Source: Siphlonurus alternatus
Taxonomy: Eukaryota > Arthropoda > Insecta > Ephemeroptera > Siphlonuridae
Direction of reading: 5' to 3'
Length of the DNA: 64,000 nt
NCBI GenBank assembly: GCA_949825025.1
Contig: OX463781.1
Span: 24,939,047 to 25,003,046, forward strand
Part shown: one piece after another, positions 13,601 through 19,300 of the stretch
Numbering within the stretch: the stretch's first letter is position 1
How the letters are laid out: the number at the start of each line of letters is the position of its first letter
Made by a program: the position numbers and the translations under genes
Notes under the pieces: generated by a model
Database searches by the model: none
What the model was told of the DNA's origin: nothing
The model's input: only the letters and a program-made list of their open reading frames with translations

Positions 13601-16318
13601 TGCACTTATATATAATATACTTATTGTTATATTTATTTTTGGTTTCAATAGAATTAAATATATGCAAAGATAATATGTGAATATTGAAAGATTGAAAGCT
13701 TATTTAATATTGAAAAACTCAAAAGTTCAGACACTGTAATTTACATGTGTGCAGGACTCACCGCGGTACGGACATCGTGCCTGACGGCAAGCACTACAAA
13801 GAAGTGGTTGCCCCTGACGGCACAGTGTCTTTGCTGATTGACAAAGCGAGACCCGAGGACGCTGGAGAGTACAGCGTAATGGCGACCAACTCTCTGGGCG
13901 ACGCATCGTGCAAGGCTAAGCTCGAAGTCACTGGCAAGAACCGTGACGCTCCCGAAGAGGTGCCCGCCATCAACCCCTTCAGGGACTTCACCACCGAGGA
14001 GGGATCACCCCTTGTCATGGACGCTGCTTTCCTCGGCAACCCTATCCCGGAAGTTGAGTGGACCAGAGACGGCGAGCTCATCGAAGCTGGAGGAAGGATT
14101 ACACTTACCTGCGACGGCAAGCGGGTACGTGAGCGTTGGACACGGTAGCTGATGAAATGTGATATTTTAATTGGAAATTCAAGATCTAATAATGCAAACG
14201 TATTCATGGTATTTGCTGAATTTTCAATTGGATAATATTATTAAAATCACAATCTCATTATGAAAAATTCGAGTGTAAATGAAAAAGCCAGAGTCTTGGA
14301 ATGATTAAATCTGAAGTGCCAAACTATTGGAATATATAATGTCATAAACTTCATAATGTTAAAACTGACTGAGATATTCTGCAATAATTAATAAGCTATG
14401 CAAATTTTACTCCTGGTGACAACAAATGCTAATTTTTCATTAAAATTATGATTGTTTGCTCCCAGGTGGGTCTTGAGATCCGTCCTGCTGAATTGGGTGA
14501 CGCTGGCCGCTACGAGTGCAAGCTGACCAACAGTCTGGGCAAGGCAAGCTCAGGCTGCACCGTGGGTGTGCGCAAGGTGTACCAGCCACCAACCTTCAAG
14601 CAGGGCTTCAACGACCTCCAACAGGTAAAAACGTCCTACAAAACATGTCAAAACTATAATTAAGCTCGAAATGATTATTTGTAAAAGATTTATTGGAACA
14701 TATCTATGTCATTAAATTTGTCCCGAATATGACCGAAACTGAAGTGCTAGAGTCTACAATGACATCAGGGGCTAATTAAGTGCTCACTAGTTCCTCGGTT
14801 CCCACAGATCCCCGGCTACGACGCTAAGTTCATTGTACGCGTTAGTGGTATGCCCGCTCCTGACATCACATGGAGCAAGGGCGGCGTGGACCTGCCAGGA
14901 CGCGAGACCGAGAAGTTCCAAATCAAGCGCGATGGAGACGCGTGCGTTCTCTTCATCCGTGAATGTACGATTGATGACGCCGGTACTTATGTGTGCACTG
15001 CCAAGAACAAGGCTGGAGAGGCTTTCGTCGCGGGAGCACTTGAGGTCGTCGATAAAATGTAATTATTATTGAAAAGCACCAAAACACATTTAATTTTTGT
15101 TAACACAAAAAAAAATGTATTATTAATATTTTTGGTAGTTGATATTGTGCTTTAGAATAACACTTTCCACAATCAAAATTTTACGAGAGAATATAGGGAC
15201 AGCATAGCATACAGCATAGATTTTAACTAAGAAATTATTAAAATAAGATTTATTACTGGAATTTGATATAAAGCATGTTCATGACAATTTATAAATCTAC
15301 GCTGAACTTCCTTTTACTCCCTTATATGTTTACTAGACTAATTAATTTAAGTTATTATTCATAGCTTATTGCTATTAATATTACTATAGTGCCATCAGCT
15401 AGGTTGTGCCTGTGTGCCATCAGTTAGGTTTAGCATTTTACATCAGCATTCACACAAAAAAATGTACTGTATTATTATTCAAGTTTTTATACTAATTTAT
15501 TTCGTATGTTGTATAAAAAGTGCAGATCTTGGAATGATTAAATCTTAAGTGCCAAACTATTGGAATAAAAAATGTCATAAACTTTATAATAATATAACTG
15601 ACCGAGACATTCTGCAGCTTTAATTATCCCTAACATACCTTCGATACTTAATTTTGTGATCTGGTGCTCACGTGTGTTTGCCATGGTTACAGTGGCAAGA
15701 AGCAGAAGGCAGAGGCTCCCATTCTCCTCAAGAAACTGGGAGACTGCGAAGTGTACCAGGGCATGACTGCGCGCTTCACGGCTTGCGTATCCGGCTTCCC
15801 CGAGCCCGAGATCGAGTGGTACCGCGACAACACCAGGATCTTCTCTAGCGACCGCGTCAAGTTCGAGCGCGAAAAATCGGGGCTGCTTAGGCTCGTCATC
15901 GAGAAGGTAAGTAGTGAACATCAAATTATCTTTTCAACGTTAAAACTTGCCTCTGATAAACAGCTATACGTTTTTTCATTGAAGCAAAATTTGACGCTCT
16001 AAAAAAATTTGGCTATATATATTTCAAATTTATGGAATGAAACAAATAATATAATAATAACTGCATTTATATTGACAATGCAGAATGATTATTACACTGA
16101 TATTGGAAACATTTGTGCCATAAACACATCGGGAATATGTATCACTATATATAATATGAAATTGCTATTTATTTTCTCAATTAATTTAATTTGGCTAAAA
16201 CACAATTAATAATAATGAATTGCACACCAGGTGGGCGAAGCTGATGTTGCCAAGTACAAGCTGCGCGTAGTGAACGAGCATGGCGAGGCCGAGTGTGACG
16301 CCGACCTCACTTACGACT
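1695..16318 (+). CDS. Unc-89: Obscurin: block of ten consecutive Ig domains
   Basis: Ten I-set Ig modules are encoded mostly by exon pairs split inside the conserved Trp codon (TG|G), as in W-F-K-D-G and W-Y-K-D-G. Each has the DAGxY-type late motif ([40 protein letters not shown]). Approximate spans: 1695-2906, 3194-8551, 9181-9873, 10254-11700, 11700-12305, 12515-12998, 13450-13940, 13955-14575, 14576-15058, 15693-16318. Two exons break the pair rule: 13755-14124 fuses the end of one Ig to the start of the next, and the module at 10254 is split over three exons. Several modules lack the first canonical Cys (for example YEVHA in the first), which is common in this family. They are likely spacer and binding modules in the M-band. 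Confidence 0.93.
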
Positions 16319-19300
16319 GTAAGTAACCCGCGATCCTACCTCAAGTGTCTGAGACTTACAAAAAAATATTCTTCATCGTAGCGCTGGACGACCGCCCACG
16401 CCTCACAATGTCTGACCAGTACCAGGACTACGATTCTCTGCGCAAGTCTGGTGCACCAATGCCACTTGCTGACCGTCCCATCGTTAGCCGCATGACCGAC
16501 CGTCACCTCACGCTGTCCTGGAAACCATCCATACCCAAAGGACCACGTGAGCCAGTCACGTACCGCGTGGAGATGTGCGAGCTGCCTGGGGGAGAATGGT
16601 TCAATATCCGCACAGGTTAGACATGAGTCTTTTAAATGGGAATGTAAGCAATAAGGCCAATAAGAAATATAATCCAGAGGTTATTTTGTAAGCTCAAGGT
16701 TTGGTTTGAAAAACAATTTATATGTAAGGGTACATGAAAATTTCTGAATGATGATCTGAATATTAGCTTTAATGTTGAAAAGAATTTGACGATTCAATGC
16801 TCTTACGAGTAATAACAGTTTTCAGCTCGCTATCTTCGGAATGATTATTATGTTGTTGGAATATTTCCCATGTCATCAACACATCGGGATAATGACCGAG
16901 ACTCTTTTACTCATAATATTTGATAAGTTGATTTTTCCTAATATTTTGTTATATTGTTAAAGAAAATGCTTTTTTTATATTTCAGACATCCGCAGCTGCG
17001 CTTGCGATATCAGAAATCTTGAGCCTTTCCGAGATTACAAGTTCCGTGTTCGTGTTGAGAACAAGTATGGACTCAGCGATCCTTCACCGTACGCCATCAC
17101 CTACAGGTTAGTATTTTTATTTCAAATAATCTTGATTTTATAGCAATTAGTCATAACAGCTAAATAATGCCAAGTAATGCCATAATTTAGCTAATGCATA
17201 TTCATCTCACTTCCTTCTCTAATACAAGTTGAAACCTATAGTTATCAGATTTACTCCATTACTTGCTAACATGCCACAATGTTACATGTCCACATTGCAG
17301 AGAAAAGCTAGAGCCAGATCCACCAAAGTTCTTCCCTTACATCGAGCCCAACATCGACTTCAGGCCAGAGACTTCGCCCTTCTTCGCCAAGGACTTCGAC
17401 ATCGAAAAACCCCCGCACGACGGGTTCGCACAGGCACCAAAGTAAGTTTTTTTGTTTTTTTTTTTTAATTACGCTACAAGGTGTTTTTTTTTTTTATAAT
17501 CGGTTGAAAAAAAAAAAAAAAAGGTTATACTGAGTATCGTTCACATGTCTTACAATTAGAGACATGGAAATATTATCCCAATAATTAAACGCAACCACAA
17601 TTTTGTATGCTCAGTTTCTTATCCATAAAATATCATTTTAAATATAGTACAATTTTATTAATGCATAAGCTCGGAATGATTATTTTTAAAAATTTATTGG
17701 AATATATCTGTGTCATTAAATTTGTCCCGAATATGACCGAGACTATGAATTATTGTATTGATGACGTCACAGTTGCTCAAAAAAATGAAATTTTATCAAT
17801 TACTGTAAACTGGAATAAAACTCTTCTGAACACTGATGGGCTTTTTAAAACATCATTGTAATATTTACTTATTAGTTAATCCCTTGTGTCCAAGGTTTGG
17901 AAGTAAATCTGGAAATGACATTGTTGTCAGGTTCCTGCAGCAGGAGCGCGACTCGCAGTATGGCGTCAAGGGCCACAACTGCCAGCTCACGTGGTTTGTG
18001 TACGGCTACCCCAAGCCCAAGATGACGTTCTATTTCGGTGACGAGCTGATCGAGATGGGCGGCCGTTATGACTGCAGCTACACCAGGAACGGACAAGCCA
18101 CACTCTTCATTAACAAGTGAGCATTATGACATGAAATCAGAATCACTTTCATGTACTCTAATAAAAAAATAAAATAAAAAAGGTTTAATTTTATTTACAG
18201 AGTCTGGAATGATTATTGTGAAAAATTTTGGAATCATTTTGTGTCATCAACACATCGGGAATATGACCAAGACTCTTTTAAAACTTCAAATATATTTATT
18301 TTTTATTTACATTATTTTTTCCATAAAAAATAACTCATCGCACATTTTCTACTGTGCAAATTTTCAATTTTCTTTTTAGCATAAAAAAAGTTACTTAAAT
18401 CTCGATCAGCACTTTTTTGATGCAATTAATATTTTGGAAATCAATTTTCTAGTAATCACTGCAGTGAGCGGTTGTACTTTAAATTTCATAACAATAGCTC
18501 GTGATCATCCCATCAAACATGGTCCTTCTCTTGTTGAGATTTGTTATGTTGTAGCCGTTATTTCGTTATTTGTGTTCTTCAGAATGATGGACCGTGACGT
18601 GGGCATCTACGAGGCGTGTGCGCGCAACGAGCACGGCGAGTCCCGTCAGCGCGTGCACCTAGACGTGGGCGAGTACCCACGCTTCACGAAGCGGCCTGAA
18701 GAAACCGTCATCCTGGCCCGCAAGACCGGTCAGTTGGAGGCCAAGCTCACGGGAGTGCCCTTCCCTGAACTCAAGTGGTACAAAGACTGGCTGCCCATTG
18801 CACCCTCATCACGTATCAAGGTGAGGACATCGCACTGTTTTTAGTAGTGTTTAGGTCACTAAACTTGTGTAATTCATACCCTCCATGTATTTTCTTTTGT
18901 TAGGACAACTTTGTTTATGAGCATATGATACTTCTCATAATGATGATGGATGATCGATCATACGCACTAAAAATAAGATAAATAAAAATAAAAATAACAT
19001 TGCAACTATGGTTGTTTGTTATGATGTTTTTTTCCTGTAAACCAGGAGTGAATATGATGAAAATACTGTACTTTTATATCTTGATATTAATATATATATC
19101 ATCCGCTTCACTGATGTGTATTTAAAATTGTTGCTCGGTTAATTAAATAAAATTTTGAATTATTATTATTATTATTTTATTATTATTGTAGTTTGGAAGA
19201 ATGTGTCGTTAATTAAAGTAGACTGCAGATTTCTATAGAAACTAAAACAATTAATTAAATTTTCATTTCCCTTCTTCATCAATACCAAAACATAATTATG

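Follow-up and report, generated by a model that had tools for sequence, protein, structure and literature searches.

Seven small nucleolar RNA-like elements in the introns of an insect obscurin gene

We analysed a 64-kb window of the Siphlonurus alternatus genome (C4:24939047-25003046, in a 455.7-Mb assembly; positions below are counted within this window) that includes ten exons of an insect obscurin (Unc-89) gene. There are nine introns between 14125 and 18582, and seven of them carry one copy each of a related element of 66-96 nucleotides (nt), always in the sense orientation (7/7). With a probability of roughly 0.68, the seven elements would be copies of one intron-encoded box C/D small nucleolar RNA (snoRNA)-like gene that spread by duplication within its host gene. 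The family is probably an undescribed, cis-duplicated and orphan C/D snoRNA-like one. As judged from sequence, its C/D membership is not proven, because box C deviates in all copies and box D in five of the seven, and a guide function for ribosomal RNA (rRNA) or small nuclear RNA (snRNA) is not supported.

The copies are joined by several sequence blocks. All of them contain AATGATTA, preceded by GG in five copies, by GA in copy 2 and by AG in copy 4, and they have TTGGAA and TGYCAT as common middle blocks. At the 3' end, [CA]TGA is followed directly by letters like CCGAG in all but copy 4. A preliminary description of this DNA had listed seven copies, one per intron, at these places, which we confirm in seven of the nine introns; its NTGA running directly into a CCGAGAC-like end holds for six copies and fails in copy 4, which has AUGU at the D-box place, lacks a contiguous stem and is apparently degenerate. 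When a profile of the seven copies was run against the window, it found only those seven, all on the forward strand (E <=2.8e-13), followed by a match at E=1.2; the matches to the copies hold by construction, so the informative part is that the window has no eighth copy. The three subtypes proposed earlier stand as three pairs, with 88-89% identity within copies 1/3, 2/6 and 5/7, but copy 4 goes with copies 5 and 7 only by the stretch before box D and over its full length is nearest to copy 1 (85%). The flanks, said earlier to be unshared, are mostly at about background identity (~70%), but those of copies 5 and 7 reach 80% and 82%. These are gapped identities against a null that includes overlapping pieces, and what they allow is the contrast between 88-89% within pairs and ~70% in most flanks.

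The arrangement of these blocks resembles that of a C/D element. The common layout runs from a terminal stem through A, AUGAUUA, 44-57 nt and CUGA or AUGA directly into the stem, which is K-turn spacing. In the C/D K-turn as defined in PMC8162545, two stems flank an asymmetric bulge of 3 nt, the G:A and A:G pairs are sheared and in tandem, and the motif is built from box C (RUGAUGA) and box D (CUGA). By sequence, five of the seven copies have the full spacing (stem I, 3-nt bulge, G.A/A.G and no bulge on the D side); copy 2 has the motif with a mismatch beside the bulge, and in copy 4 box D lacks its final A. AAU forms the bulge, tandem G.A/A.G pairing is possible in 6/7 copies (not copy 4), and the pair of stem II that is usually G-C is U-A in copies 2, 5, 6 and 7. 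A generic C/D pattern (5-bp stem, N, [AG]TGAT[GT]A, 40-65 nt, NTGA, stem), written after the copies had been seen, occurs at four places in the window, all of them copies (1, 3, 5 and 6), and at none on the other strand; 40 Markov sequences gave a mean of 0.175 per strand and a maximum of 1. Copy 7 escapes this pattern because of a bulge, and copies 2 and 4 because they have no stem.

Placement within the introns points the same way. Counted to the last base of the intron, box D is 97, 75, 91, 90, 90, 194 and 316 nt away in copies 1 to 7, respectively. Five of the seven are thus 75-97 nt upstream of the 3' splice site; the preliminary description had placed the ends of five copies 67-90 nt before that site, and its claim on placement holds. 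Random placement in the same introns brings at least five within 70-100 nt with P=0.00056, a band picked after seeing the data, and at least five within any 22-nt band with P=0.0021. According to PMC8178906, C/D snoRNAs are optimally placed ~70 nt upstream of the 3' splice site; PMC8162545 puts the optimum ~50 nt before the branch point. A C/D snoRNA would be expected to be ~60-90 nt long, intronic, sense and near the 3' splice site; here the length is 66-96 nt, 7/7 are sense and 5/7 are near.

Whole-genome searches indicate that the family is confined to this gene. The exact pattern AATGATTA-N(5-36)-TTGGAA-N(4-16)-TGTCAT occurs at seven places in 455.7 Mb, namely copies 1, 2, 3, 5, 6 and 7 and one other locus (L014), against three places for the reversed control; copy 4 carries TGCCAT and therefore falls outside the pattern. 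A looser pattern, GGAATGATTA-N(5-35)-TTGGAA, has twelve genome places, five of them copies, and its control eleven. None of the eight non-copy places (L014 and seven from the looser pattern) has a stem pair beside NTGA at C/D distance. Against the family profile these places score at most 10.7 bits (L014 1.3), compared with at least 45.8 for the copies; the highest-scoring one, L028, reaches E=0.0097, but in a set preselected for the motif. BLAST-type DNA searches of the genome returned only copies 7 and 5 for a copy 7 query and only copies 3 and 1 for a copy 3 query. These queries represent 2/7 copies, and the genome searches would miss relatives that have diverged strongly as well as any sequence that the assembly lacks; since copy 7 found only copy 5 besides itself, DNA searches miss even family members. 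A pattern search of viral contigs gave 2 places, one with a stem of 2 pairs and one with none. The family is real, and within the reach of these searches it is specific to this gene. Many hundreds of copies genome-wide, the finding that the preliminary description had named as fatal to its proposal, were not found (exact pattern at seven places, six of them copies).

How strong is the case for an RNA structure? The terminal stems named earlier are present as sequence. From copy 1 to copy 7 there are 7, 0, 6, 0, 5, 5 and 3 contiguous pairs, and in the stem register 73.8% of cells are paired, a share that never exceeds 50% in slid controls. The stem of copy 7, AGAGUCUGG/CCAAGACUCU, gains 9 possible bp with one bulge, the outer 7 of which are in the predicted fold. 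The predicted folds of copies 3 and 6 have a terminal stem of 12 bp interrupted by a 3-nt bulge and a 7-bp stem with one bulge, respectively, and copy 5 could form a 5-bp stem (UUCGG/CCGAG) outside its minimum-energy fold. Copy 2 keeps 3/6 stem pairs and has lost the innermost one, and copy 4 keeps two. The stem scores of copies 1 and 3 are reached by 3% of random intron places.

Several results weigh against a full C/D snoRNA claim. Two-sided changes occur in 3/6 stem pairs, a count equalled by 94/500 shuffles, while the paired-cell share of 73.8% is equalled by 119/500 and the covariation score by 69/500; the differing pairings, read earlier as a sign of selection on structure, are thus not above shuffles. 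Arms swapped between copies pair about as well as cognate arms: 188 and 251 of 5040 arm permutations reach the observed sum, and 55 and 26 of 120 do so when the set is limited to the five better copies. Among random intron places, 22% score as high as the stems of copies 2, 4 and 5. Minimum-energy folds lack the terminal stem in copies 4 and 5 and have only 3 of its pairs in copy 2, and their energies are unremarkable (z between -2.2 and +1.0). RNAalifold gave no pairs for an alignment in which the 3' ends of copies 1 and 3 are misplaced. The boxes deviate as well. Box C is AUGAUUA in 7/7 copies, which fits RUGAUGA at 6/7 positions (G6 is U) and so is canonical in none of them; box D is CUGA in 2/7 (copies 1 and 3), AUGA in 4/7 (copies 2, 5, 6 and 7) and AUGU in 1/7 (copy 4). 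In the two CUGA copies, stem II has a mismatched U.C opposition. By eye there are no clear C' or D' boxes, and the middle holds the UUGGAA and UGYCAU blocks.

The search for targets and known relatives adds to these points. No convincing rRNA or snRNA target scored above shuffles among presumed human rRNA and snRNA sequences and one large-subunit (LSU) rRNA of unknown eukaryotic source (L003); the insect's own 28S rRNA was not found with one query. No Rfam family reaches its gathering score in the window (0 matches). At E up to 5, five Rfam matches fall in 13900-18900 and one of them on a copy, which is sn2429 (RF01167) on copy 5; it scores 19 bits where gathering requires 50 (E=3.9) and is hence not a match. 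The start of this C/D box family, presumably from C. elegans, and its stretch after box C do align with copy 5. A snoRNA-like nature, as first proposed, is still the best reading of the elements by their spacing, sense orientation, occurrence of one per intron, placement and the lack of a further copy in the genome searches, but neither structural selection nor a guide function is supported along with it.

Four more specific ideas were tried and set aside. A 28S guide was considered for copy 5, which shares CAACACATCGGG with copy 7 (copy 4: AAACACATCGGG); within this stretch, CAACACATC complements GATGTGTTG in 28S (presumed human sequence), 5-6 nt from box D. Copy 5 scores 13.2, and 30 shuffles average 11.1 and reach up to 13.5; we do not accept the guide because the pairing of copy 5 ends 5 nt before box D and copy 7 scores 10.8. 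A GUCA/UGAC hairpin across the D box is possible by eye in 6/7 copies; since it never varies, it is no evidence and was not taken as such. An H/ACA snoRNA or hairpin RNA was rejected on the lack of a common internal hairpin in the folds and in the RNAalifold alignment, with its misplaced 3' ends of copies 1 and 3, and an Sm-like site around UUGGAA is off the presumed consensus. In passing, L003, L004 and L005 are contigs of bacterial metagenome-assembled genomes in GTDB that carry eukaryotic LSU rRNA, which is contamination.

A C/D snoRNA-like family would resemble known ones in its manner of spread. In excerpts of PMC8178906, members of human C/D families lie mostly in one host gene and arose mostly by recombination in cis, and chicken snoRNA paralogs are likewise described in part of PMC2653536 as same-host products of recombination in cis. 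Like these paralogs, as described there, the obscurin elements occur one per intron in sense orientation in several introns of one gene, with placement near the 3' splice site, a possible terminal stem and C/D-like ends. Unlike them, they have a non-canonical box C throughout, no target found and no Rfam match, and their host is a sarcomere gene, whereas the others have broadly expressed hosts. Among the matches listed for open-access literature on snoRNAs of obscurin/unc-89, insects, same-host paralogs and muscle hosts, titles and the starts of abstracts describe no such family, and Table 1 of PMC5932544, on fifteen new fly snoRNAs, does not have Unc-89 among the hosts.

How might such elements work? 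Once the obscurin pre-mRNA is transcribed, the terminal stem could join AUGAUUA and [C/A]UGA as a K-turn; in sequence this would consist of the stem, the AAU bulge, the tandem G.A/A.G, a U.U and then, in the four AUGA copies, U-A for the usual G-C. During splicing the K-turn may be bound by SNU13/15.5K, NOP58, NOP56 and fibrillarin, aided by the distance to the 3' splice site. Debranching, followed by exonuclease trimming of the intron, would then leave an RNA of ~65-95 nt, which may be an orphan or may act on some other RNA. The part likely to be functional would be the invariant middle (UUGGAA ... UGYCAU), not the stretch ahead of box D that varies between subtypes. Copies 2 and 4 probably work poorly or not at all. 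In any case, stem strength, D box and distance to the splice site vary among the copies, which makes them seven natural replicates; small-RNA data would show which of them produce RNA.

The host itself invites a wider interpretation. Obscurin is a muscle-restricted sarcomere gene. PMC3511168 reports broader expression for human genes with an intronic snoRNA than for other genes and takes this breadth as the main requirement for a host. A family of seven copies in one sarcomere gene and nowhere else would, if true, be an exception to this rule and would suggest either a tissue-restricted function or a function in cis, in the processing of a very large muscle transcript. One doubtful extension, offered tentatively, is a muscle-dedicated orphan C/D cluster, in which obscurin introns would release paralogous snoRNAs that, as a group or each subtype separately, control the splicing or modification of sarcomere mRNA (or of obscurin) only where muscle forms. 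By analogy, this would be an insect counterpart of brain SNORD115/116. Like SNORD115 and SNORD116, the elements are repeated C/D-like units in one transcription unit with no obvious rRNA target and are possibly tissue-restricted; unlike them, they are seven copies in introns of a protein-coding insect muscle gene.

Could the elements act on the very transcript that carries them? As cis-acting intronic RNA elements they would tune the splicing of neighbouring obscurin exons, with or without assembly of a small nucleolar ribonucleoprotein. Their occurrence in the obscurin gene only, one per intron, in sense and in five cases near the 3' splice site, suits this role, as does the lack of an external target among the RNAs tried, and parts of PMC8162545 and PMC10324135 offer precedents in SNORD86 (NOP56) and SNORD2 (EIF4A2). 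Those are likewise intronic C/D elements that in principle can affect host splicing, although the obscurin gene differs in holding seven related ones. However, the distance to the 3' splice site is 194 nt in copy 6 and 316 nt in copy 7, and a simple splicing enhancer has no need of K-turn-like ends. We consider this role rather unlikely.

Still less probable, and in our view improbable, is that the repeats act as DNA, as intronic muscle enhancers. The host is a muscle gene, and the common AATGATTA, TTGGAA and TGYCAT blocks with variable spacing would fit binding sites, GGAAT being like what we take to be the TEAD/MCAT core and TGTCA like the presumed Meis/Hth core; yet enhancers would not be expected to lie 7/7 on the same strand, one per intron, with register-specific stems and placement by the 3' splice site. 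Insertion of a miniature inverted-repeat transposable element (MITE) or other mobile repeat seven times has very little probability, since for all the terminal inverted repeats in some copies, the sharp ends and the mostly unshared flanks, the family combines K-turn spacing, 7/7 sense orientation in one gene, one copy per intron, clustering of 5/7 and no clear target-site duplication by eye, and a dispersed repeat or MITE was made unlikely by whole-genome searches (DNA queries from 2/7 copies), which gave no further copy in 455.7 Mb beyond the level of the control patterns.

The identification of the host rests on its protein. The ten exons at 13900-18820 (Table 1), with bounds from splice signals and frame, encode an open Ig/FN3 frame of 619 residues. 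An informative match is 'obscurin-like, partial [Frankliniella occidentalis]' with 47% identity over 96% of the query, among 52 hits from 7993 candidates scored; the other close hits mostly have no informative name. Protein blocks from 2732 to 31998 of the window likewise match the proteins found for the host. The two introns that lack an element copy are 16319-16381 (63 nt) and 17107-17300.

Table 1. The host gene and the seven intronic elements, in window positions.
Feature	Positions	Strand	Details
Host, insect obscurin (Unc-89) gene: ten exons	13900..18820	+	first exon entered at 13900; Ig I-set and FN3 domains
Copy 1, subtype A	14289..14381	+	stem, C box AUGAUUA 14301-14307, D box CUGA 14365-14368, stem; intron 14125-14465
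Copy 2, subtype B	14665..14737	+	C box 14671-14677, D box AUGA 14729-14732; weak terminal stem; intron 14625-14807
Copy 3, subtype A	15521..15616	+	C box 15534-15540, D box CUGA 15598-15601; intron 15059-15692
Copy 4, subtype C by stretch before box D	16079..16145	+	C box 16085-16091, D-box place AUGU 16137-16140; intron 15907-16230
Copy 5, subtype C	16835..16900	+	C box 16841-16847, D box AUGA 16892-16895; intron 16616-16985
Copy 6, subtype B	17668..17744	+	C box 17676-17682, D box AUGA 17733-17736; intron 17442-17930
Copy 7, subtype C	18199..18276	+	C box 18209-18215, D box AUGA 18263-18266; intron 18117-18582

Other features of the window lie around the elements. On the 5' side of most obscurin exons, 5700-7440 is GC-rich with long overlapping open reading frames in several frames, and GC is 54% at 6001-8000 compared with 35% for the window; this stretch is perhaps a CpG-rich promoter region. 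Inside the obscurin gene region, a 675-codon open frame at 27592-29619 (+) looks by eye like the reverse transcriptase of a non-LTR retrotransposon. Further downstream, a minisatellite with a 15-nt unit at 38145-38221 recurs as its reverse complement at 40475-40589, with two apparently reverse-complementary tandem arrays of 80-85 nt between them, and 38145-40589 is probably one inverted-repeat element of ~2.4 kb.

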